DNA of 9,317 nt from Chitinophagaceae bacterium. Its GTDB lineage: Bacteria > Bacteroidota > Bacteroidia > Chitinophagales > Chitinophagaceae. Within the stretch, counting starts at the first letter, position 1; the number at the start of each line of letters is the position of its first letter. Location: contig DPWF01000251.1 in assembly GCA_003526435.1 (NCBI GenBank), forward strand, positions 26,623 to 35,939, in the 5' to 3' direction. Of this stretch, positions 1 to 9,317 are shown piece after piece. The notes beneath the pieces are model-generated. The model did not search any database. It saw only the letters and a program-made list of their open reading frames with translations, and was not told the DNA's origin. The position numbers were made by a program, and so were the translations under genes.

Positions 1-3000
1 GATGATGCACCATCTGGAGCAACTTTTAAGTGGCTTAAAGATAACGTTGAGATTATACCAGCTCAAACAAGTATTTCTTTTAATGCAACTACATCCGGCA
101 GTTACACAGCATTAATTAATAACTCAATAACTACTCCGGCTGTCGTTTTGGTTGTAAATACTAACCCAACTGCTGGTTTTACAGTTTCATCACAAAACGA
201 TTGTGCGAATGTAAATACAACATTTACAAGTACGTCTATTGGTACTTCTTTGACTTATGCATGGAACTTCGGTGATCCTAATTCTGGGTCAGGTAACGCC
301 TCAACTCTCCAAAATCCTACAAAAACATTTGTAGGCACACCCGGTAACAGTACACAAACATTTCCCGTTTCGCTAACTGTAACAGATGTAAATGGTTGTA
401 CAAATACGGTTATAAACAATATAGTAAAAAATCAACTACCCAGTACTGCACTAGGCGGAACTGGAATAAAAACCTATAATGACCAAACATATTATGCAAT
501 ATGCGGATCAACCAGCGGTACATTTACTTTTTCAAACACATCTACTACATCAAGTACAAATACAAACTATAATATAACATGGGGAAATGGGAATCCCAAT
601 TATTCTGCGAATACTTTTACCAGTACAACTCAAACATATAATACCGGAGTTTATACATTAAACTATTCAGTAACTGGTGGAAACGGGTGTATTAGTACGT
701 CTGAAAAGAAAGTTTTCGTTGGATCAAATCCTAGTATTGGAACTTCAAATCCGGGATCAACATCAGTTTGTACTGGTCAAACGTTAACATTCCCAATTAA
801 TGACGCTACAAATAATACACCTGGAACTACCTACACTGTCAATTTCCATGACGGGACTGCGCCATCTGTTTTTACTCATCCGGCTCCAGCAAATGTTTCG
901 CATACTTATCTATTAAATTCTTGTGGCGTAAATAGTTTAACATATTCTAATTCTTTTTACGTTTCCATTGTTGCATCAAATGCTTGTGAAACCTCTACCA
1001 GTTTTGCTGCTCCTATTTATGTATCAAATGCACCTGTAGCAGATTTTTCTATATCGCCAAGTAGTCCAGTTTGTGTAAATACAGTTGTAAATTTTACAGG
1101 TAATGCTACTTCTCTTAAAGTAGCATCTAATTCAGGCTGTGCTAATAGTCAATCTATTTGGAGTATCACACCGGCAACAGGCTGGGTATTACAATCTGGT
1201 AGCATTTTAGGTATTGATAATGGTTTCAATGACCCATCGCTATGGACTACACCAGGTTCTAACAATCTTTCAGTAAGATTTACTGCTGCAGGAACTTATA
1301 CAATAAAACTTAAAGTTGCCAATAGCACTAATTGCGGTTTTGATGAAATCACTAAAACAGTTTGTGTTAATCCAACACCAACAGCTGCTTTTACAGTTGA
1401 TCAAACTATAGGCTGTAATAATCTTTTAGTAAAAACCACAAATACTAGTTCTGCACCCTCCTGTGGTGTTAATACGTATAGTTGGAGTGTTACCTATTCA
1501 GCAGCTTCCGGATGTACTCCATCCACTTCCCTATTTAATTATGTATCAGGTAGCAGTACCTCTGAAAATCCAGAATTCTCTTTTGTGAATCCAGGAACAT
1601 ATACTATCAGATTGGTTGTAACAAGTCCGGGGGGGTGTGTATCAACCGCTGCAACAAGAACCATTACTGTAAAATCAAAACCAACCGTCACAATAAATAA
1701 TATCCCAACAACTATTTGTGTGGGTTCTATTTCACCTTCCGCTACGGTTGCCAATTGTAATGCTACCACTACACCCACATATCTTTGGACTTTCCCAGGA
1801 GGTAGTCCAGCCAGTTCAACGAGTGCATCACCAGGTAGTATTAATTACACTACACCCGGAACTTATACTATACAGTTAGATGTTACAAATGAATGTGGTA
1901 CAACAACGCTAACACAATCTATAGAAGTCAAGCCTATACCTACTGCTACAGTACCCGCTAATCAGGAAATCTGTACTGGTACAACTGTGGGGACCTTCAC
2001 ATTTACGGGTAATATTACAGGAACAACGTTTGCATGGACAAACAACCTCACATCTATAGGGTTAGCCAGCTCTGGAAATACGGCTACGATTAACGCATTT
2101 ACTGCAATCAATAATACAGCAGCTCAAGTAGTTTCGACAATATCAGTTACCCCTTCTGCCGGGGGGTGTACTGGTCCCGCTAATTCCTTTACAATAACCG
2201 TAAACCCCCGACCTTCAGCACCAGGTGTAATAAGTCCAATAGAATATTGTTTAAATGCAACACCATCTGCACTAACGGCATCTACAGTTATTGGAAATAC
2301 TGTTTTATGGTATAATAATAGCGGATTAACAGGAGGCTCTGCTACAGCTCCAACGCCTAGTACAGCTATTGCAGGTACTACAACTTATTACGTTACGCAA
2401 ACAAATGCATTTACATGTAGAAGTAACTCTTCTGCAATCACTGTAAATGTTACCAATGCGATCACTACTAATACTATTACGGCAGACCAAACTATTTGTG
2501 CTGGAACAAGCCCTGCCAGTCTTACCGGTACGGCTACGGGTGGTACTGGTTCTTATACTTATCAATGGCAGCTTTCAACAGATAATGGCAATTCATGGAT
2601 AAATGTTCATTCTAATGGAACTAATAGCACTTATAGCCCAGGAGCGGTTTCAACATCAACATTATACCGAAGAATAGTAAATAGTGGTGCCTGTACACTC
2701 CTTTCAAGCAATACTGCGGCAATTACAGTTCTACCAATACTAAGCAATTTTTCTATTTCAGGAAATCAGCAAATTTGTGAAGGTAATCCAACCTCACTTT
2801 TGGTAGGCGAATTACCAACAGGAGGAAACGGCTCTTATACCTATCAATGGGAAATTTCAACCAATAATAGTACCTGGAATACTATTACTGGTGCAAATGC
2901 TAAAGATTATCAGCCTCCGTTATTAACCACCACCACCTATTATCGAAGAAGAGTCACAAGTGGTGCTTGTTCAGCCATTTCTCCCTCAATTACAATTACC

Positions 3001-6000
3001 ATATATAATAATCCTAACACAGGTACTTTGTCTGCTTCTGTTATAAATGCTTGCCAAGGCTCAACGGTTTCTGTATCAACTTCTGGTGTTGTAGGTGTAA
3101 TTCAAAAATGGCAATATAACCTAACTCCTACAGATAATAATACCTGGATAGATGTTAATCAAACAACTAATACAGTAAGTTTTACTAATGTTCAAAATAG
3201 TTTTGGTGTAAGAGTAGTAGTAAAGCAATCGGGATCATGTACAAATGAGGCAATTAGTGCAGTTACACAAGTAAATACATCCTTAACAACAGTACCAGGA
3301 GTTACATCTGGTAATGCAACGGTTTGCGTTACAGGAAATAGTGGAACCATAAACTTAACCGGACAAACAGGGTCTGTTGTACGCTGGGAAAGATCTACGA
3401 ATAACGGCTCCAGTTGGACTACTGTAAATAATACCACAACAACTTTAAATTACTTAAATCTAACCACAACAACTTTATATAGAGCAGTTGTACAGAGTGG
3501 TGTTTGCCCGCAAAGTAATTCTACTGCGAGCACCATTACTGTTGTACCAACAGTTACCCCTTCAAATGCGGGAATTGATCAAAGATTATGTAATCAAACA
3601 CAAACAAATTTAAACGGTAATACACCATCTTTTGGAACAGGAATATGGAGTCAGACATCAGGATCTGCTCTAACAATCACAAACCCTTCTCTACGTAATA
3701 CTACCGTTACCGGATTACAGCCCGGACAAACATATAGATTTAGCTGGGTTATAACCGGACCCGGGGCTTGTCCCAGTTCTTCGGATGAGGTTGAAATAGT
3801 GAACACTCCAACTATAACAAATGCAAATGCAGGATCAGATAAAATTGTTTGCGCATTTACTTCAGCCGATGACTCTGTAACACTTTCAGGTAATAATCCT
3901 GCAAATCCAATATTTGAAACCGGTACATGGACATTACTTAGCCCTGTACCGCCCGGAAGTTCAAGTAGTATACGCAATCCAAATAGTCCGAGTTCTGTGT
4001 TTGTTTTTAACAGACCGGGTACTTATCGGTTATCATGGTCAATCAATAATAATGCTTGTGTAACAAGCAGAGATACCATGGAAGTGGTTGTATTTGATAA
4101 ACCCATAACAGGTCCGCTTGTTGCTTCAGCCACAAAGGCTTGTGTTGGGAATGATATCACAATAAATACGGGAAATACATTTCGAGGCGTTGTTTCAAAA
4201 TGGCAATATTCATTCAATCCTGCTGTTTCATCTAATTGGATAGACACACCTGTTACTTCAACAACGATTAATTTTTTAAATGTTCAAAAAAGCTTTTCGG
4301 CTAGAATCATTTCAATTTCAGCCGGTGTGTTAAGAGGCTGTAATATATCAGATACATCAGTAATTCCGATAGAGATTGTTCCTGACTTTAATAATATTAT
4401 TGATACTACCTCTCTAACCGTTTGCCCGGGGCAGGCTGTTGCTATTCCAGGCCAATTACCCATTGGAGCCTATAATGTTTTTGATTACCAATGGCAACAA
4501 AGCAAAGATGGAAAAACTGATTGGGTTGATATTACCGGTCAAACCGGAGCAAACTTAAATATGACTCCATTATCAACAACATTTGTAAGAAGACTGGTGA
4601 TCGTTTCTCCTTGTATAAAAGCCAGTTCTTTAGTCTACATTTTTGTAAGACCTTCTGTTGGAAATTTTTTAATGTCAGATAGTGTTGGAACCTGTTTTCC
4701 GTTTGATGTAACTTTTACTAATCTGGTTCTGCCCTCTACAAAAACAACCTGGAATTTCGGAGATGGCGCCTTTAATGAAGGAGATGAAGTATCTCACACT
4801 TATCGCTCAACAGGTACTTTTCAAGTTGTTATGACAGCTCAGTATCCGGGTGGATGTAGGTTTGAGGCAACAAAGACTGTTACAATTACGGGCCCCAAAG
4901 GTATTTTTCAGCATAACATTACTCCACTATGTTTAAGCGATGCTGCTAGATTTGAAGTGGCGGCGCCAGGTGTAGATTCTATTCGATGGAATTTTGGCGA
5001 TGGGAATGTATTGATCACTACTGAAAAAATTATTTATCATACATATACAGCAGCAGGACCATATTATCCAACTGTTGACCTACTTGCAGGACCAGAAGGT
5101 AAGTGTAGAAGTCGGTTAAATGGTATTGATTCTATAAGAGTAGACAATGTTACTGGTGGATTTACAAATACGATTGAACAGACTTGTGGAAACACCATTG
5201 TAGCTTTTACAGACCGGTCTACAGCTTTTTATGGAGTTAAAGCAATGCAGTGGGATTTCGGAGATGGGAATAACAGCAACGATAGAAACCCTACGCATAT
5301 ATACAATGCACCCAGTAGCTGGCAGGTAAGACAAATTACGGAAGGAAATAGTGGTTGCAGGGATACGATTCGAAGGTTAATACCAATAACAATCTGGGAT
5401 ATTCCAAAAGTTAATACCAATAAAGACTCTATTGCTTGTGTTGGGCAAGTAGTTCCTTTTGCTGCAAATGTTTTTTCCCTTGACCCAATTAAAAGTACTG
5501 TTTGGAATTTCTCTTCCGGATCTATAGTTACAACTTTAAACGCGCCAACAGTTTATCAATTTCCCGGCAATTATTTAACCCTTTTTGTTGCTACTACCAT
5601 TCACAACTGTGCTGATACTGTAAGGCTTCCTATAAGGGTTTATCCTCCATTGTCCATCGATCTGGGTCCAGATAAACTTTTAGCTACCGGAACTCTCTTT
5701 CCATTAAATAGTATAATAACAAATGGACCTGTTTCTGAGTGGGAATGGAAGCCAAATAATAATATTAGCTGTAATGCATGTCCATTACCAATAGCAACAA
5801 TAAAAAATAATATCACCTATACTGTTAAGGGTGTTACAGCTAATGGCTGTATTGCAACAGACAGTATTAACATAAAAGTTTTTTGTGAAAGAGCACAAGT
5901 GTTTATTCCGAATGTATTTACACCAGATGGAGATGGTTTAAATGATGTATTGATGGTTAGGGCCTCAGGTATTCGTTCTGTAAAATCATTCAGAATTTTT

Positions 6001-6183
6001 AACAGATGGGGAGGTGTTGTTTTCGAAAGATCGAATTTCCAGCCGAATGATAAATCGCAGGGTTGGGATGGCCTTATCAACGGTAAAAAAGCACCACCTG
6101 ATGTATATATATATACTTGTGAAGTGATTTGTGAAAACAATACAAGCTATCCCTACAAAGGGAATATTACATTGGTTAAATAA
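1..6183 (+). CDS. Giant secreted PKD/Ig-like repeat protein with C-terminal T9SS type B (CHU_C) sorting domain, 5' partial
   Basis: The frame is open from base 1 to the TAA at 6181-6183, so the gene starts upstream; the TTG at 148 is only an internal codon. 2060 residues are visible. The protein is very rich in Thr, Ser and Asn, with many domain-delimiting GC or C residues, as in exported Bacteroidetes adhesins. It opens with PKD-like domains (WNFGD at residues 88-92, further degenerate copies to about 690). Ig-like domains follow to about 1550 (GSYTYQW at 850-856 and 943-949). Four PKD domains follow (WNFGDG at 1584 and 1663, WDFGDG at 1751, a degenerate fourth). The CHU_C domain at about 1963-2060 ends the chain. 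Family knowledge: CHU_C proteins are exported by the type IX system and act as surface adhesins or matrix-binding proteins, SprB being the model. The PorP/SprF gene 6 bases downstream fits a secretion pair. The ligand is unknown. The class is secure; the exact role is inference. Confidence 0.93.
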   Translation, partial: DDAPSGATFKWLKDNVEIIPAQTSISFNATTSGSYTALINNSITTPAVVLVVNTNPTAGFTVSSQNDCANVNTTFTSTSIGTSLTYAWNFGDPNSGSGNASTLQNPTKTFVGTPGNSTQTFPVSLTVTDVNGCTNTVINNIVKNQLPSTALGGTGIKTYNDQTYYAICGSTSGTFTFSNTSTTSSTNTNYNITWGNGNPNYSANTFTSTTQTYNTGVYTLNYSVTGGNGCISTSEKKVFVGSNPSIGTSNPGSTSVCTGQTLTFPINDATNNTPGTTYTVNFHDGTAPSVFTHPAPANVSHTYLLNSCGVNSLTYSNSFYVSIVASNACETSTSFAAPIYVSNAPVADFSISPSSPVCVNTVVNFTGNATSLKVASNSGCANSQSIWSITPATGWVLQSGSILGIDNGFNDPSLWTTPGSNNLSVRFTAAGTYTIKLKVANSTNCGFDEITKTVCVNPTPTAAFTVDQTIGCNNLLVKTTNTSSAPSCGVNTYSWSVTYSAASGCTPSTSLFNYVSGSSTSENPEFSFVNPGTYTIRLVVTSPGGCVSTAATRTITVKSKPTVTINNIPTTICVGSISPSATVANCNATTTPTYLWTFPGGSPASSTSASPGSINYTTPGTYTIQLDVTNECGTTTLTQSIEVKPIPTATVPANQEICTGTTVGTFTFTGNITGTTFAWTNNLTSIGLASSGNTATINAFTAINNTAAQVVSTISVTPSAGGCTGPANSFTITVNPRPSAPGVISPIEYCLNATPSALTASTVIGNTVLWYNNSGLTGGSATAPTPSTAIAGTTTYYVTQTNAFTCRSNSSAITVNVTNAITTNTITADQTICAGTSPASLTGTATGGTGSYTYQWQLSTDNGNSWINVHSNGTNSTYSPGAVSTSTLYRRIVNSGACTLLSSNTAAITVLPILSNFSISGNQQICEGNPTSLLVGELPTGGNGSYTYQWEISTNNSTWNTITGANAKDYQPPLLTTTTYYRRRVTSGACSAISPSITITIYNNPNTGTLSASVINACQGSTVSVSTSGVVGVIQKWQYNLTPTDNNTWIDVNQTTNTVSFTNVQNSFGVRVVVKQSGSCTNEAISAVTQVNTSLTTVPGVTSGNATVCVTGNSGTINLTGQTGSVVRWERSTNNGSSWTTVNNTTTTLNYLNLTTTTLYRAVVQSGVCPQSNSTASTITVVPTVTPSNAGIDQRLCNQTQTNLNGNTPSFGTGIWSQTSGSALTITNPSLRNTTVTGLQPGQTYRFSWVITGPGACPSSSDEVEIVNTPTITNANAGSDKIVCAFTSADDSVTLSGNNPANPIFETGTWTLLSPVPPGSSSSIRNPNSPSSVFVFNRPGTYRLSWSINNNACVTSRDTMEVVVFDKPITGPLVASATKACVGNDITINTGNTFRGVVSKWQYSFNPAVSSNWIDTPVTSTTINFLNVQKSFSARIISISAGVLRGCNISDTSVIPIEIVPDFNNIIDTTSLTVCPGQAVAIPGQLPIGAYNVFDYQWQQSKDGKTDWVDITGQTGANLNMTPLSTTFVRRLVIVSPCIKASSLVYIFVRPSVGNFLMSDSVGTCFPFDVTFTNLVLPSTKTTWNFGDGAFNEGDEVSHTYRSTGTFQVVMTAQYPGGCRFEATKTVTITGPKGIFQHNITPLCLSDAARFEVAAPGVDSIRWNFGDGNVLITTEKIIYHTYTAAGPYYPTVDLLAGPEGKCRSRLNGIDSIRVDNVTGGFTNTIEQTCGNTIVAFTDRSTAFYGVKAMQWDFGDGNNSNDRNPTHIYNAPSSWQVRQITEGNSGCRDTIRRLIPITIWDIPKVNTNKDSIACVGQVVPFAANVFSLDPIKSTVWNFSSGSIVTTLNAPTVYQFPGNYLTLFVATTIHNCADTVRLPIRVYPPLSIDLGPDKLLATGTLFPLNSIITNGPVSEWEWKPNNNISCNACPLPIATIKNNITYTVKGVTANGCIATDSINIKVFCERAQVFIPNVFTPDGDGLNDVLMVRASGIRSVKSFRIFNRWGGVVFERSNFQPNDKSQGWDGLINGKKAPPDVYIYTCEVICENNTSYPYKGNITLVK
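2476..3012 (+). repeat. Tandem pair of Ig-like domains (GSYTYQW units)
   Basis: Two adjacent domains, at about 2476-2736 and 2749-3012, share one plan: an opening Q-x-I-C-x-G, then G-G-x-G-S-Y-T-Y-Q-W, an S-T-[DN]-N segment, a T-x-x-Y-x-R-R strand and a closing S-G-A-C. They occupy residues 826-912 and 917-1004 of the giant protein. The pattern is that of Bacteroidetes Ig-like surface repeats. The DNA copies have diverged, so this is an old duplication and not a recent one. Confidence 0.75.
3013..3240 (+). repeat. Ig-like block A, copy 1
   Basis: Residues 1005-1080 (P-N-T-G-T-L start, KWQY core, WID, NVQ-x-SF, terminal Cys) match residues 1368-1447 closely by eye, with about 30 identical positions in roughly 76. 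The two copies are separated by an Ig-like domain and the NAG-x-D pair. Confidence 0.7.
3565..4098 (+). repeat. Tandem pair of NAG-x-D Ig/PKD-like domains
   Basis: Domain 1 covers about 3565-3804 (NAGIDQRLC start, GTGIWSQ, a PGQTYRFSW strand). Domain 2 covers about 3826-4098 (NAGSDKIVC start, ETGTWTL, a PGTYRLSW strand). Both share the plan N-A-G-x-D-x-x-x-C, then x-L-x-G-N-x-P, then G-T/I-W, then Y-R-[FL]-S-W. This is a recurrent Bacteroidetes adhesin domain type. It lies at residues 1189-1366 of the giant protein. Confidence 0.7.
4102..4341 (+). repeat. Ig-like block A, copy 2
   Basis: Residues 1368-1447 are the second copy of the block at 3013-3240. The shared landmarks are P-x-T-G-x-L-x-A-S, A-C-x-G, G-V-[IV]-x-K-W-Q-Y, N-x-W-I-D and N-V-Q-[NK]-S-F. 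It has a three- to four-residue insertion before the closing Cys. Confidence 0.7.
4660..5649 (+). repeat. Array of four consecutive PKD domains
   Basis: Four domains of about 77-83 residues follow each other at about residues 1554-1630, 1634-1716, 1719-1799 and 1803-1883. The first three carry the PKD hallmark W-[ND]-F-G-D-G (residues 1584, 1663, 1751) followed by an H-x-Y strand. The fourth is degenerate (WNFSSG). PKD folds are extracellular beta-sandwiches, here probably forming a stalk just ahead of the sorting domain. Confidence 0.85.
5887..6180 (+). other. CHU_C / gliding motility-associated C-terminal domain (T9SS type B sorting signal)
   Basis: The last ~98 residues (1963-2060) carry the CHU_C signature. 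It opens with IPNVFTPDGDGLND at 1969-1982, followed by an F-R-I-F-N-R-W-G segment, then W-D-G-x-x-N-G-K and P-x-D-V-Y-I-Y, and ends in a G-N-I-T-L-V-K strand. Family knowledge: this domain directs export by the type IX system and, unlike type A signals, usually works with a partner PorP/SprF protein. Such a gene is the next one downstream. Confidence 0.93.
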
Positions 6184-6189
6184 TTTATT

Positions 6190-7248
6190 ATGAGAAAAGT
6201 TTTATTAGCAATACTCTTATGTTCTCCGGTAGTTTTATTATCGCAAGACTTTTCATTTTCACAGTTCTATGAAATGCCCATGTTGCGCAACCCAGCTTTA
6301 TCAGGCATATTCAATGGCGATATCAGAGTTAGCTCTGTTTATAGAAATCAGTGGGCCAGCATTTCAGTTCCTTTTCAAACAAGAGCATTCGGCGTAGAGT
6401 ATAAAAAATCTATTAACGACAAGAGTAATAGCTACTATACCTTAGGGTTACAGCTAACATACGACAAAGCCGGTGACCTGGCACTCAAACGAATTCAGGT
6501 TTTACCTGTCATAACTTATCACCAGTCGCTAAGTAATGATAATGATACCTACTTATCTGGTTCATTCATGCTTGGAAGGGTGCAAAGTAATTTTGATCCT
6601 TCAAAAGCTATGTTAGACGATCAGTTTGTAAATGGAAGTTACTCACCAGGCAATGTATCAGCACAAACGTTTACCAATACAGGCAGATCTTACACAGATA
6701 TGTCTGCTGGGCTTGTCTTCTCTTCGAGTTATGGAGAAGACTCCAGATTTTATATTGGCGCCGCTCTTTATCATCTGAATAAACCCAAATTGAATTTTTT
6801 TGATAATGATGCTAATACTTCTCAGGCACCAAAGGTTGTTTTTAATGCAGGGTTAAGTACGCCTGTTACTGAACGAAGCCAGATTATTGCGTATGTTGAC
6901 TATTATCAGCAAACCGGAAATAAGCAATTGTTTGGGGGTATGCTGTATGAATTTCCTGTGACATCTTATTTAGATGATGGTGATAATATCAAACTTTCTG
7001 TAGGTGCTTTTTATCGATGGAACGATGCATTAATACCTGCTTTCAAAATACAGGCATCTAAATTAATGCTGGGTCTTAGTTATGATGTTAATGTATCTCA
7101 ATTAAGAACAGCTTCACAATTAAGAGGAGGAATGGAAATCACACTTTCCTTTCTGGGTTTTCTAAAAGGAGAGTCTTCTTCCAGAAATAAAGTTCGGTGT
7201 CCAAGGTTTGGAGGGGGGAAAAATGTTGGGTGGTGGTATTCTAAGTGA
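6190..7248 (+). CDS. Type IX secretion system outer-membrane protein, PorP/SprF family
   Basis: This 352-residue protein begins with a signal peptide (MRKVLLAILL, hydrophobic to about residue 18). The Cys at residue 11 is not in a valid lipobox. The mature N-terminus has the family hallmarks: F-S-Q-F-Y-x-x-P, R-N-P-A-L-S-G at 33-39 and Y-R-N-Q-W at 51-55. The rest alternates short beta-strands and turns, as expected of an outer-membrane barrel. Family knowledge: SprF-like proteins are needed for export or surface attachment of a CHU_C-type substrate, normally encoded just upstream. Here the giant PKD protein ends 6 bases before this ATG, so the two are very probably co-transcribed. No Shine-Dalgarno is visible. 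Oddity: the typical family ending (V-R-C-P-R-F, residues 335-340) is followed by 12 extra residues, GGGKNVGWWYSK, encoded by G-rich DNA. Which paralogue this is cannot be told. Confidence 0.93.
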   Translation: MRKVLLAILLCSPVVLLSQDFSFSQFYEMPMLRNPALSGIFNGDIRVSSVYRNQWASISVPFQTRAFGVEYKKSINDKSNSYYTLGLQLTYDKAGDLALKRIQVLPVITYHQSLSNDNDTYLSGSFMLGRVQSNFDPSKAMLDDQFVNGSYSPGNVSAQTFTNTGRSYTDMSAGLVFSSSYGEDSRFYIGAALYHLNKPKLNFFDNDANTSQAPKVVFNAGLSTPVTERSQIIAYVDYYQQTGNKQLFGGMLYEFPVTSYLDDGDNIKLSVGAFYRWNDALIPAFKIQASKLMLGLSYDVNVSQLRTASQLRGGMEITLSFLGFLKGESSSRNKVRCPRFGGGKNVGWWYSK

Positions 7249-7418
7249 AGAATAATGAAGTTATTAATATTGATGACAGTGGGTGTGGGATTGTTTGGAA
7301 CGTTTACGGCTTATTTGGCGAGCTAGTTTGTGGAGGAGGGGAAGGAGACATGAAGGTTAGTGGTGAAGGAGATCCTCAGTTTAGAAGGATGACATCCCCA
7401 TATTATCCGAATTCATAA
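7245..7418 (+). CDS. Possible 57-aa unidentified protein or 5' gene remnant (GTG start)
   Basis: A 57-codon frame opens with GTG overlapping the PorP/SprF stop (GTGA) and ends at TAA 7416-7418. It begins V-K-N-N-E-V-I-N-I-D-D-S-G-C-G, has a hydrophobic/aromatic stretch (IVWNVYGLFGELVCGGG) and a polar tail. The V-I-N-I-D-D-S-G start reads like the first beta-strand and turn of a real domain and not random sequence, but I cannot name a family. An internal ATG at 7350 follows a strong purine-rich GGAAGGAG, unusual for this phylum, so a 22-aa product is an alternative. A third option is a truncated remnant of a longer gene. Its length is too short for any statistic to be convincing. Confidence 0.3.
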   Translation: MKNNEVINIDDSGCGIVWNVYGLFGELVCGGGEGDMKVSGEGDPQFRRMTSPYYPNS

Positions 7419-7453
7419 GCAGATTATTAACTGGAGCTCACGATGATATAGTG

Positions 7454-7482
7454 TTGACAAAACTTTACACATATTTTATAAA
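7454..7482 (+). promoter_or_regulatory. Sigma70-type promoter (TTGACA-17-TATAAA) for the accessory operon
   Basis: A perfect TTGACA at 7454-7459 is separated by exactly 17 bases from TATAAA at 7477-7482. Transcription would start near 7489-7490, leaving a 5' leader of about 90 bases before the ATG at 7582. The classical Bacteroidetes pattern (TTTG, then TAnnTTTG) is not clearly present; the nearest match is a poor one around 7531-7538. The promoter would drive the 76-aa gene and the GHKL ATPase. Confidence 0.55.
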
Positions 7483-7486
7483 ATAT
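7471..7486. repeat. Perfect 16-bp palindrome over the -10 box
   Basis: ATATTTTATAAAATAT is its own reverse complement over all 16 positions and contains the TATAAA -10 element. A dimeric repressor bound here would block the promoter. It is entirely A+T, so chance is a serious alternative. Confidence 0.5.
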
Positions 7487-7517
7487 TTATAGAAATAAAT
7501 TAATTAATATTCTTATT

Positions 7518-7533
7518 TATATTTTAAAATATA
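7518..7533. repeat. Second perfect 16-bp palindrome, in the leader
   Basis: TATATTTTAAAATATA is perfectly self-complementary. It shares the half-site ATATTTTA/TAAAATAT with the palindrome over the -10 box, the two halves overlapping by two bases here. The two centres are 47 bases apart. It lies downstream of the predicted transcription start, inside the leader of the 76-aa gene. Confidence 0.5.
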
Positions 7534-7581
7534 TTTTGATATACAGAAATGATATAGTATGTTAGTCATAAAGTATCTGAT

Positions 7582-7812
7582 ATGGCAAAGTTATCGGCAA
7601 AAAAAGAACGATTTAAGAATGTAGCAGGGAGAAGGGTTCAAAAAGTATTAGATGACATCGAGAGTTTAGCTAAATGCTCTAATAGGAGCACTTATGACTA
7701 TACAGATGAAGAAGTAAGAAAAATGTTAAGGGCCATTAATGAGAAAGTAACTCAATTGAAAATTGCTTTTAATAGTAATAGCAAGTCCGGTAAACAAACC
7801 TTTGAATTTTAA
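7582..7812 (+). CDS. Small charged protein (76 aa) heading the GHKL ATPase operon
   Basis: The protein is 76 residues with a basic N-terminus (MAKLSAKKERFKNVAGRR), no signal peptide and no membrane segment, so it is probably cytoplasmic. Two helical segments are likely: R11-K31, and D42-K60, which has a heptad-like pattern. They are linked by S-N-R-S-T-Y-D-Y-T at 33-41, the most distinctive motif. I recall small proteins with a similar S-N-[RK]-S-x-Y-x-Y-T core in other bacteria, in accessory contexts, but cannot assign a function from sequence. The ATG at 7582 has no Shine-Dalgarno, normal for the phylum. It ends in tandem stops TAA-TAG; the second is in frame with the next gene. Only 9 bases separate it from the ATPase start, so co-transcription is very likely. 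It might be a DNA-binding or accessory subunit of the ATPase system, which is inference. Confidence 0.82.
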   Translation: MAKLSAKKERFKNVAGRRVQKVLDDIESLAKCSNRSTYDYTDEEVRKMLRAINEKVTQLKIAFNSNSKSGKQTFEF

Positions 7813-7821
7813 TAGAACATT

Positions 7822-9317
7822 ATGAATAAAGAACTGCACTGGCATCATGTGTCAACTGGAGGAGGAGATGTTGATGGTCTCAATAACTCAATGATTGAAC
7901 ACTTCGCAGGAAATTATAATTACTTTTTAGCGAGAGAAATTATTCAAAACTCCCTTGATGCCAAAACAAAAGGCATTACCCAAAATTTACCTGTTCGGGT
8001 GACATTTAAGCTGGAATCACTTTCAAAAGAGGAATTTCCCGGACATCAAGAGCTATTACAAATTATTAAAAGTGGAAAAAATTTATGGAGTCATCACGTC
8101 GAAACTGTTGCTTTTCTTGAAGGCGCAATAAAGTGTTTAACTCAGGAAAAAATTCCATGTTTGAGAATATCGGATTTTAATACAACAGGATTGAGTGGTA
8201 ATGACAACGATATGCAGGGCGGCTGGTTTAATCTTGTTAGGTCTACAGGGGCGAGCTCCAAAAGCGGTGGAGAAGGTGGGTCATTCGGAATTGGCAAAGG
8301 TGCTCCGTTTGCCGCTTCTGACCTTAGAACTGTACTATATGCTACACAAAACGAAAAATCAGTTTCAGTTTTTCAGGGTAAGGCAGAGTTGGTGAGTTTC
8401 CGGGATGAAAACGGCGATACTAGAAGAGGAGTGTGCTCTTATGGTTTCGAACAAAACTCTGTTAGGGTCCTAGAAGCTATTCCGAAAGGGTTTTGGAGAA
8501 AAGACCAGGGCACAGACATAGTGATCTGCGGTTATAAAGCGACCGGAGATTGGGTGGACGATCTTTTAAAATCAGTACTTAGAAATTTTTGGTATGCAAT
8601 TCATTGCAAAGATTTGGTTGTCGAAGTTGAAGACCACAAAATTGAATACGATAATCTGTCAGAATATTTAGTTAAGCATTTTGTCAATGAGCCGTTCAAG
8701 GATTATGTGGAACCAGCGGGTAATCCGTTGCAATATTATTTAGCAGTAACTCAGGGCGAAGAGTTAGGAAAAGGACAAAAGTTGAAAATTCTTGATGAAT
8801 GCAGATTTCATTTTAAAATGATCGAATCGCATATGAATTATGTAGCAATGCTTCGAAGATCGCATATGGTGATATATTCTAGGCGGTTTAATTTTCCGGG
8901 CAATTTTGCTGGAGTGTTCATATGCGATAACGAAAAAGGCAATCTCGCCTTGCGAAAAATGGAGCCTCCTGCACATGACAAATGGGACCCTAAAAGGAAC
9001 AAAGAGAATGGTGATTTGATTATGAACGAAGTTACCAGCTTTATTCGTTCTTGTCTTGACAGTATAAAGAGCAAACAGAGCTTTGGAATCCTCGAAATTC
9101 CAGACTTGCAGAAATATCTTCCATACGACGACGGGGAAGATGCTGGAAACGGTAGCGGAACTTCTATATATACAGGAAAAGAAGGAAAGGAAGAGACGTC
9201 ACAGCTAATTCAAAAAAAAGAAGTTCTGAATAGAAGTGTTATTATCAATCCGTATAAAGTTTCTGTTCTGAATGAAGACCAAGCTCTTTATGGTGATGGC
9301 GAAGAGGGATCCAGAAC
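7822..9317 (+). CDS. GHKL (MutL/MORC-like) ATPase, probable defence-system component, 3' partial
   Basis: The frame is open from ATG 7822 to the window end: 498 residues, no stop. An in-frame TAG at 7813 fixes this ATG as the earliest start. The Bergerat ATP-binding fold is clear. The N-box is R-E39-I-I-Q-N43-S-L-D46-A47, and the first glycine box is D118-F-N-T-T-G123-L. The lid/second glycine box is G153-S-F-G156-I-G158-K159-G, followed by A-P-F-A-A-S-D-L-R-T, and a G-T231-D-I strand (G230-T231) completes the fold. Residues ~245-410 would be the transducer-like domain, containing M-E-P-P-A-H-D-K-W at 380-388. After a Gly-rich linker at about 436-452 (GEDAGNGSGT) a further domain begins and is cut off. 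No membrane segment or histidine-kinase phospho-acceptor domain is visible. This fits the stand-alone MutL/MORC-like ATPases of bacterial defence and restriction operons, better than a sensor kinase, gyrase or Hsp90. The ATPase fold is secure; the defence role is inference. Confidence 0.88.
   Translation, partial: MNKELHWHHVSTGGGDVDGLNNSMIEHFAGNYNYFLAREIIQNSLDAKTKGITQNLPVRVTFKLESLSKEEFPGHQELLQIIKSGKNLWSHHVETVAFLEGAIKCLTQEKIPCLRISDFNTTGLSGNDNDMQGGWFNLVRSTGASSKSGGEGGSFGIGKGAPFAASDLRTVLYATQNEKSVSVFQGKAELVSFRDENGDTRRGVCSYGFEQNSVRVLEAIPKGFWRKDQGTDIVICGYKATGDWVDDLLKSVLRNFWYAIHCKDLVVEVEDHKIEYDNLSEYLVKHFVNEPFKDYVEPAGNPLQYYLAVTQGEELGKGQKLKILDECRFHFKMIESHMNYVAMLRRSHMVIYSRRFNFPGNFAGVFICDNEKGNLALRKMEPPAHDKWDPKRNKENGDLIMNEVTSFIRSCLDSIKSKQSFGILEIPDLQKYLPYDDGEDAGNGSGTSIYTGKEGKEETSQLIQKKEVLNRSVIINPYKVSVLNEDQALYGDGEEGSR

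Follow-up and report, generated by a model that had tools for sequence, protein, structure and literature searches.

What system begins at the right end of contig DPWF01000251.1 of a Chitinophagaceae bacterium (GenBank assembly GCA_003526435.1), where a small gene is followed by an ATPase-like gene that is cut by the contig end? The window, i.e., the whole stretch of DNA analyzed, comprises 9,317 nucleotides (positions 26,623 to 35,939 of the forward strand) and is the right end of a contig of 35,939 bases in an assembly that is 73% complete. The initial annotation described two open reading frames (ORFs) with 9 bases between them; both were confirmed and belong to conserved gene families. The second is open at its 3' end, and the window end is the contig end; it encodes 498 amino acids (aa), and approximately 120 residues are missing because homologues among the matches listed are mostly about 610-620 aa long. 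We consider the chance slightly better than even that the window holds the 5' part of a module of the PDC-M33 (paraMORC2) type, in which a likely DNA-binding controller is followed by a predicted GHKL ATPase with partners beyond the contig.

The ATPase matched the phage defence candidate PDC-M33A of PADLOC (E=1.1e-122, residues 5-467), which partly supports the suggested anti-phage reading. PADLOC contains Mza models; a scan at E<=1 returned nothing besides PDC-M33A, and membership in a Mza-type system is regarded as highly unlikely. Searches of the ATPase against Pfam and NCBIfam gave no significant name. Among 8000 candidates scored, 951 were homologues at E<=0.001, and the nearest named ones were from Ferruginibacter and Chitinophagaceae. 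The earlier description of a GHKL ATPase with split glycine boxes was upheld by its motifs, but not firmly by profiles. The N-box, G1-like and G2 motifs contain residues that are invariant in an alignment of 27 ATPase relatives (A1), the source of the invariant residues in Table 1. The Pfam profile HATPase_c_3 matched one of the 27 A1 members weakly (E=0.033) and none of seven further M33A proteins; it gave E=0.016 in the relative L144 and no match in L109, L142 and L143. In an hhalign comparison with the MutL profile, the N-box alone was aligned, in register, at E=0.018.

Table 1. Positions of the predicted genes, motifs and candidate regulatory sites in the window
Feature	Position	Strand	Basis
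Half-site ATATAGT, first copy, beside the -35-like box	7446..7452		Enriched 7-mer
Promoter-like TTGACA (7454-7459) -N17- TATAAA (7477-7482)	7454..7482	+	Sequence
Half-site ATATAGT, second copy, between the promoter-like pair and the small gene	7552..7558		Enriched 7-mer
Small NRS-family gene, 76 aa, predicted operon controller	7582..7812	+	5774 homologues; GHKL-type neighbours; operator analysis
KCSNRSTYDY motif of the small protein	7672..7701	+	Invariant residues in A4 (see text)
GHKL-type ATPase gene, PDC-M33A (paraMORC2-like), first 498 of about 620 codons	7822..9315	+	PADLOC; length of relatives
N-box REIIQNSLDA	7933..7962	+	R38, E39, Q42, N43, D46, A47 invariant in A1
G1-like box DFNTTGL	8173..8193	+	D118, N120, G123, L124 invariant in A1
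G2 box GGSFGIGKGAPF	8275..8310	+	G153, S154, G156, G158, K159, G160, A161 invariant in A1
ExxxH motif (EPPAH), named for paraMORC2	8962..8976	+	E381, H385 invariant in A1; PMC2292703

The partners of the ATPase were sought in its relatives. A scan of GTDB species contigs with A1 gave 65 loci, 63 of which were analyzed, the weakest two, L070 and L071, being excluded. L160, very probably the same contig as L007 because both are 164195 bases long, was kept out of the 63, and the GHKL, B and C of L057 do not differ from those of L069. A gene was counted when it occurred anywhere in the fetched stretch around the ATPase; several of these stretches (e.g., L020, L043, L050 and L068) stop within the cassette, and the misses include such contigs. 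M33B was present in 59 loci, M33C (Pfam DUF6339) in 58, a C5 DNA methyltransferase in 53 and a Vsr nuclease in 23. Of the partners named in the initial annotation, a methyltransferase was thus frequent in the relatives, whereas AIPR genes occurred in 2 of the 63 (L054 and L063); the Pfam scan covered 21 neighbour proteins. PADLOC identified M33B and M33C directly behind the ATPase in L009 and L010, and in L007, L009 and L010, the neighbours within the A-B and B-C pairs overlap or are no more than 10 bases apart. M33B and M33C had no match elsewhere in the 73% complete assembly of the window, and control genomes likewise gave none. No C5 methyltransferase (PF00145) was found in the window or in its incomplete genome (control genomes, 10/14). 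B, C and the methyltransferase are predicted to lie beyond the contig end in this genome.

G272, from the same family as the window, carries on one strand the small gene, GHKL, B, C, Vsr, the C5 methyltransferase and a restriction-enzyme homologue (E=1e-87 to an annotated type II enzyme of an Arthrobacter plasmid). This order is the best guide to the genes that may follow the contig end of the window. Annotated plasmids show similar company: dcm, vsr and a type II enzyme in Arthrobacter; an AlwI-family enzyme, vsr and a methyltransferase in Planococcus; a type II enzyme and dcm in Paenarthrobacter; a MutH/Sau3AI-family enzyme and dcm in Priestia; and the AlwI family in Lactococcus, where the small gene was not found.

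In sequence similarity, B and C track the ATPase (Spearman 0.77 and 0.71, respectively) more closely than do Vsr (0.47), the small protein (0.45) or the methyltransferase (0.25, a value reached in 2 of 500 permutations). Pearson coefficients against the ATPase were 0.94 for B, 0.92 for C and 0.72 for the methyltransferase. The ATPases of L025, L030 and L031 are about 60% identical and their methyltransferases 37-45%; in the groups L010-L018 and L048-L060, the methyltransferase is at least as conserved as the ATPase. Since B and C follow the ATPase and the methyltransferase does so less, GHKL-B-C appears to be one unit that is at times moved between methylation specificities. It would form the ATP-driven part of a C5 restriction-modification (R-M) system. 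Separately, on a Rhodobacteraceae contig (L054, 8977-19302), the GHKL-B-C cassette occurs twice, in facing orientation, with an AIPR gene in between. In L143 and L109, the M33A-like ATPases are accompanied by different proteins, namely, two that the B and C profiles do not match and that are related between both loci (E about 1e-8 and 1e-16).

The frequent methyltransferase and the Vsr nuclease would also suit a MutL-like helper dedicated to the Vsr repair of deaminated 5-methylcytosine, with no restriction or defence role. For very short patch repair, Iyer et al. (2008, PMC2292703) pointed to MutL as acting together with Vsr. However, Vsr was not found in 40 of the 63 stretches, whereas B and C almost always were, and several loci contain varied restriction enzymes (AlwI, Sau3AI/MutH, NgoFVII, HinP1I and HNH types). 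Moreover, the ATPase is rare, being found in 4 of 294 genomes of the family and 4 of 395 genomes of the class, its own genome counted. We regard a dedicated repair helper as very unlikely.

The new part of the module proposed here is the small gene. A profile built for it identified 5774 homologues among 7226 candidates. No Pfam domain was found in the 120 homologues listed or, above the cut-off, in the window copy, and no PADLOC model matches the gene. F11, R18, N34, Y38 and F63 are invariant in the 30 sequences of alignment A4. The profile gave 10 matches in 395 Bacteroidota genomes; 7 were strong, that of the window's genome among them, and the other 3 (E 2.7e-4 to 7.2e-4) were left out as likely false. 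The following gene is GHKL-type in 6 of the 7 strong matches, the window included: an M33A-like ATPase in the window, G455, G373 and G502, and an ATPase of a different family (751-800 aa) in G462 and G410. Of 16 plasmid records with the small gene, 13 were opened, and a GHKL-type gene is adjacent in 8; Ensifer L152 was not counted among these, although its next gene encodes 800 aa and has an N-box-like stretch. Rhizobial and Dinoroseobacter plasmids carry a further family of 615-621 aa (HATPase_c_3, E 0.0012 to 0.059). The ATPase of the viral contig L104 passes the HATPase_c_3 cut-off (E=5.6e-9), and those of L101, L145 and L146 form one family, with E=1.7e-4 (below the cut-off) in L146, 0.094 in L145 and no match in L101. 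The small gene therefore directly precedes GHKL-type ATPases of four families (M33A, L101/L145/L146, L104 and rhizobial), among which phmmer at E<=1e-3 detected no link. The profiles for families II, III and IV were built from loci that they afterwards labelled.

The small protein may instead serve the GHKL ATPase as an obligate small subunit or as an activator, with the palindromes described below bound by something else. The distance from its stop to the ATPase start is -4 to 44 bases in the small-based loci read, and the GHKL genes of at least 250 aa that the four profiles identified in these loci (6, 8 and 5) all lie directly behind a small gene. In addition, its similarity partly follows that of the ATPase: the coefficient of 0.45 was obtained in 29 loci and reached in 0 of 500 permutations, and it was 0.28 in 48 loci. 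However, the small proteins of the window and G272 are 71% identical and their ATPases 30%, and those of L144 and L145, with ATPases in families I and II, respectively, are 74% identical. ATPase identity is 27-30% in these two pairs, one of which is between families; therefore, the small protein does not behave as expected of a subunit fitting its ATPase. It also precedes a methyltransferase instead in L045, L064 and L111. The co-occurrence of the small gene and the ATPase, raised in the initial annotation, was seen in 32 of the 63 M33 loci but not in the other 31. In viral contigs, a GHKL-type gene adjoins the small gene in 5 of 30, and most carry it without the ATPase. We find the subunit explanation rather unlikely.

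For a possible operator, the upstream 200 bases were compared in 43 non-redundant loci, 7 of 50 having been dropped as redundant or short. ACTATAT/ATATAGT was the most enriched 7-mer, in 17 of the 43 loci (expected 3.8; z 6.8 vs a highest value of 6.1 in 20 shuffled sets). Inverted repeats with perfect 8-base arms occurred in 11 of the 43 (shuffles 2.5, maximum 5 in 40). The palindrome CTATAT-spacer-ATATAG, with 11 or 12 of 12 matches, was present in 12 of the 43, vs a mean of 0.67 and a maximum of 2 in 30 shuffled sets, and before 5 of 722 other ORFs of the same loci, one of these being a small-gene promoter on the opposite strand. Within AT-rich regions alone, the ratio was 9/26 before small genes vs 2/144 before other ORFs. 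With at least 10 matches, the excess was smaller (16/43 vs 6.0, maximum 11). The spacer was 7 or 8 bases in 11 of the 12 palindromes, although 3 to 11 were allowed and spacing played no part in the k-mer step. These 11 of the 43 loci come from at least three phyla: Bacteroidota (L008, L009, L068 and L143-L146), Arthrobacter (L156), Deinococcus (L078), an Oligoflexia bin (L050) and L016. Furthermore, spacer-7/8 sites number 11 in the 467 kb of the 32 M33 loci that have the small gene, with 5 lying immediately in front of it, vs one in the 508 kb of the 31 loci that do not.

The initial annotation placed the two genes behind their own promoter. A TTGACA-N17-TATAAA pair is present upstream, and TTGACA was the top 6-mer before small genes (16/43, expected 4.2), with a z of 5.9 that was equalled by the best of 20 shuffled sets. 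However, the sigma-70 scan, the rules of which exclude this pair, gave 4 sites vs 3.1 in shuffles, and the Bacteroidota-type promoter TANNTTTG was also not in excess.

From these sequence comparisons, we consider the small protein likely to be the controller of the operon. The genes, their conserved neighbourhood, the exchanged ATPases and methyltransferases and the palindrome enrichment in relatives are observed; we infer that the small protein binds DNA, that ATP is hydrolysed, that a complex forms and that the module has a defence activity. The module may function as follows. In its own promoter, the small protein would bind ATATAGT sites that are palindromic or paired, and it would set the level of the whole operon in the manner of C proteins and RptR in other R-M systems. 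The C5 methyltransferase would mark host DNA as self, as is usual in R-M. GHKL proteins generally form ATP-gated dimers; the ATPase may form such a dimer, which M33B (a predicted beta-sandwich with additional helices) and M33C (predicted to be almost all helical) would join. GHKL-B-C may then act as an ATP-gated DNA clamp; unmarked DNA would be licensed or looped by it for cleavage by the nuclease of the locus.

Several observations weigh against this reading. The cleavage-licensing step is the weakest because A, B and C match no nuclease family and some loci have no visible restriction enzyme; around the cassettes of L008 and L009, Vsr, the methyltransferase, the small gene, A, B and C are present, and no restriction enzyme was read. 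The GHKL assignment depends on motifs and weak profile matches, and Pfam and PDB matches revealed no DNA-binding domain for the small protein. A full palindrome is absent from the window, in which two half-sites flank TTGACA-N17-TATAAA. A spacer-7/8 site is absent from 32 of the 43 loci, including all loci named Patescibacteria and L148, the nearest small homologue of the window. The same 43 regions served first for choosing the half-site and then for scoring, and the upstream regions of L144 and L145 look homologous and, therefore, may count once. The similarities of the small protein and the ATPase still correlate in the 48 loci, as given above. The small protein is less conserved than the ATPase in 5 pairs; between the window and L009, it is 39% identical and the ATPase 49%. 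Lastly, 25 of the 30 viral contigs have no GHKL gene beside the small gene.

Among the closest known systems is the PADLOC candidate PDC-M33 (A, B and C), which has the same M33A and the B and C carried by the relatives L009 and L010. Its models comprise A, B and C only: the small gene, the C5 methyltransferase and Vsr lie outside them, and B and C lie outside the contig of the window, which ends inside M33A. The ATPase shares the GHKL motifs and, in its later part, ExxxH with paraMORC2 (Iyer, Abhiman and Aravind 2008, PMC2292703), whose described neighbourhood of DNA methylases and Vsr nucleases resembles that of the relatives here. The comparison covers the motif and neighbourhood described there. 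That account stressed SFII helicase partners, whereas the largest helicase cluster among the neighbours here covers 4 of the 63 loci, and it named cyanobacteria and Gram-positives as the main hosts, whereas hosts here also include Bacteroidota, Patescibacteria and Actinomycetota. The DNA clamp proposed here is close to the paraMORC proposal of 2008 (PMC2292703).

RptR (PMC12255303) and type II C proteins are encoded by a very small first R-M gene with repeated or palindromic promoter sites, an arrangement that the small gene here may share. RptR has four helices and binds TAGCTA in a type I R-M system (PMC12255303), whereas the site here is CTATAT-N7/8-ATATAG. No RptR chain was among the PDB matches of the small profile or of the window's small protein, the presence of RptR in the library being unchecked. 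A GHKL ATPase domain starts the tested anti-phage protein VcSduA (paraMORC3 Shedu, PMC12137116); VcSduA has a nuclease fused at its C-terminus, whereas M33A matches no nuclease family. The HEF_HK/Response_reg_2 pairs (PMC8011034) also place GHKL proteins beside C5 methyltransferases and Vsr; however, their architecture is two-component-like, and neither domain was matched here.

Beyond the module, positions 1-7248 of the window contain a 2060-aa repetitive surface-type ORF, very long and open at the left, followed by a PorP/SprF protein (Pfam E=1.5e-31); this upstream part holds no methyltransferase. Between the PorP/SprF gene and the promoter-like pair (7249-7453) is a G-rich patch with a short open stretch reading MTVGVGLFGTFTAYLAS; the GC skew is 0.44 in 7201-7600. 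This patch may be the scar of an insertion boundary.

Small relatives were also found in other settings. They occur with no adjoining GHKL gene in L103, L106, L108, L113-L129 and Synechococcus phages S-CRES1-3, and those in viral contigs and phage records are possibly decoys or borrowed regulators. In an Agrobacterium plasmid (L076, 8165-11303), a Gabija pair (GajA, E=8e-221; GajB, E=3e-178) lies behind the small gene and its GHKL gene, and in L077, genes with similar annotations follow after one more gene. In L110 (6503-7237), the small domain is fused behind a metallopeptidase-like part, which we take to resemble a SprT/zincin-type metallopeptidase, and an ACTATAA-type palindrome is located 2.2 kb upstream.

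More broadly, we tentatively propose, at a little under an even chance, that NRS proteins are a new and very large family of palindrome-binding controllers. They would be combined in many phyla with exchangeable GHKL ATPase cartridges (at least four unlinked families) and methyltransferases, and phages would carry them alone, perhaps silencing the module. GHKL/MORC-like ATPases have been predicted as parts of bacterial restriction systems since 2008 (PMC2292703), and VcSduA is the only tested one in the literature searched (PMC12137116). Because the ATPases of families II, III and IV escape the PADLOC models at E<=0.01 in the members scanned, the small gene, which marks modules across ATPase families, provides a simple tag for finding new ones. 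Moreover, the predicted operator makes the control of the module directly testable.
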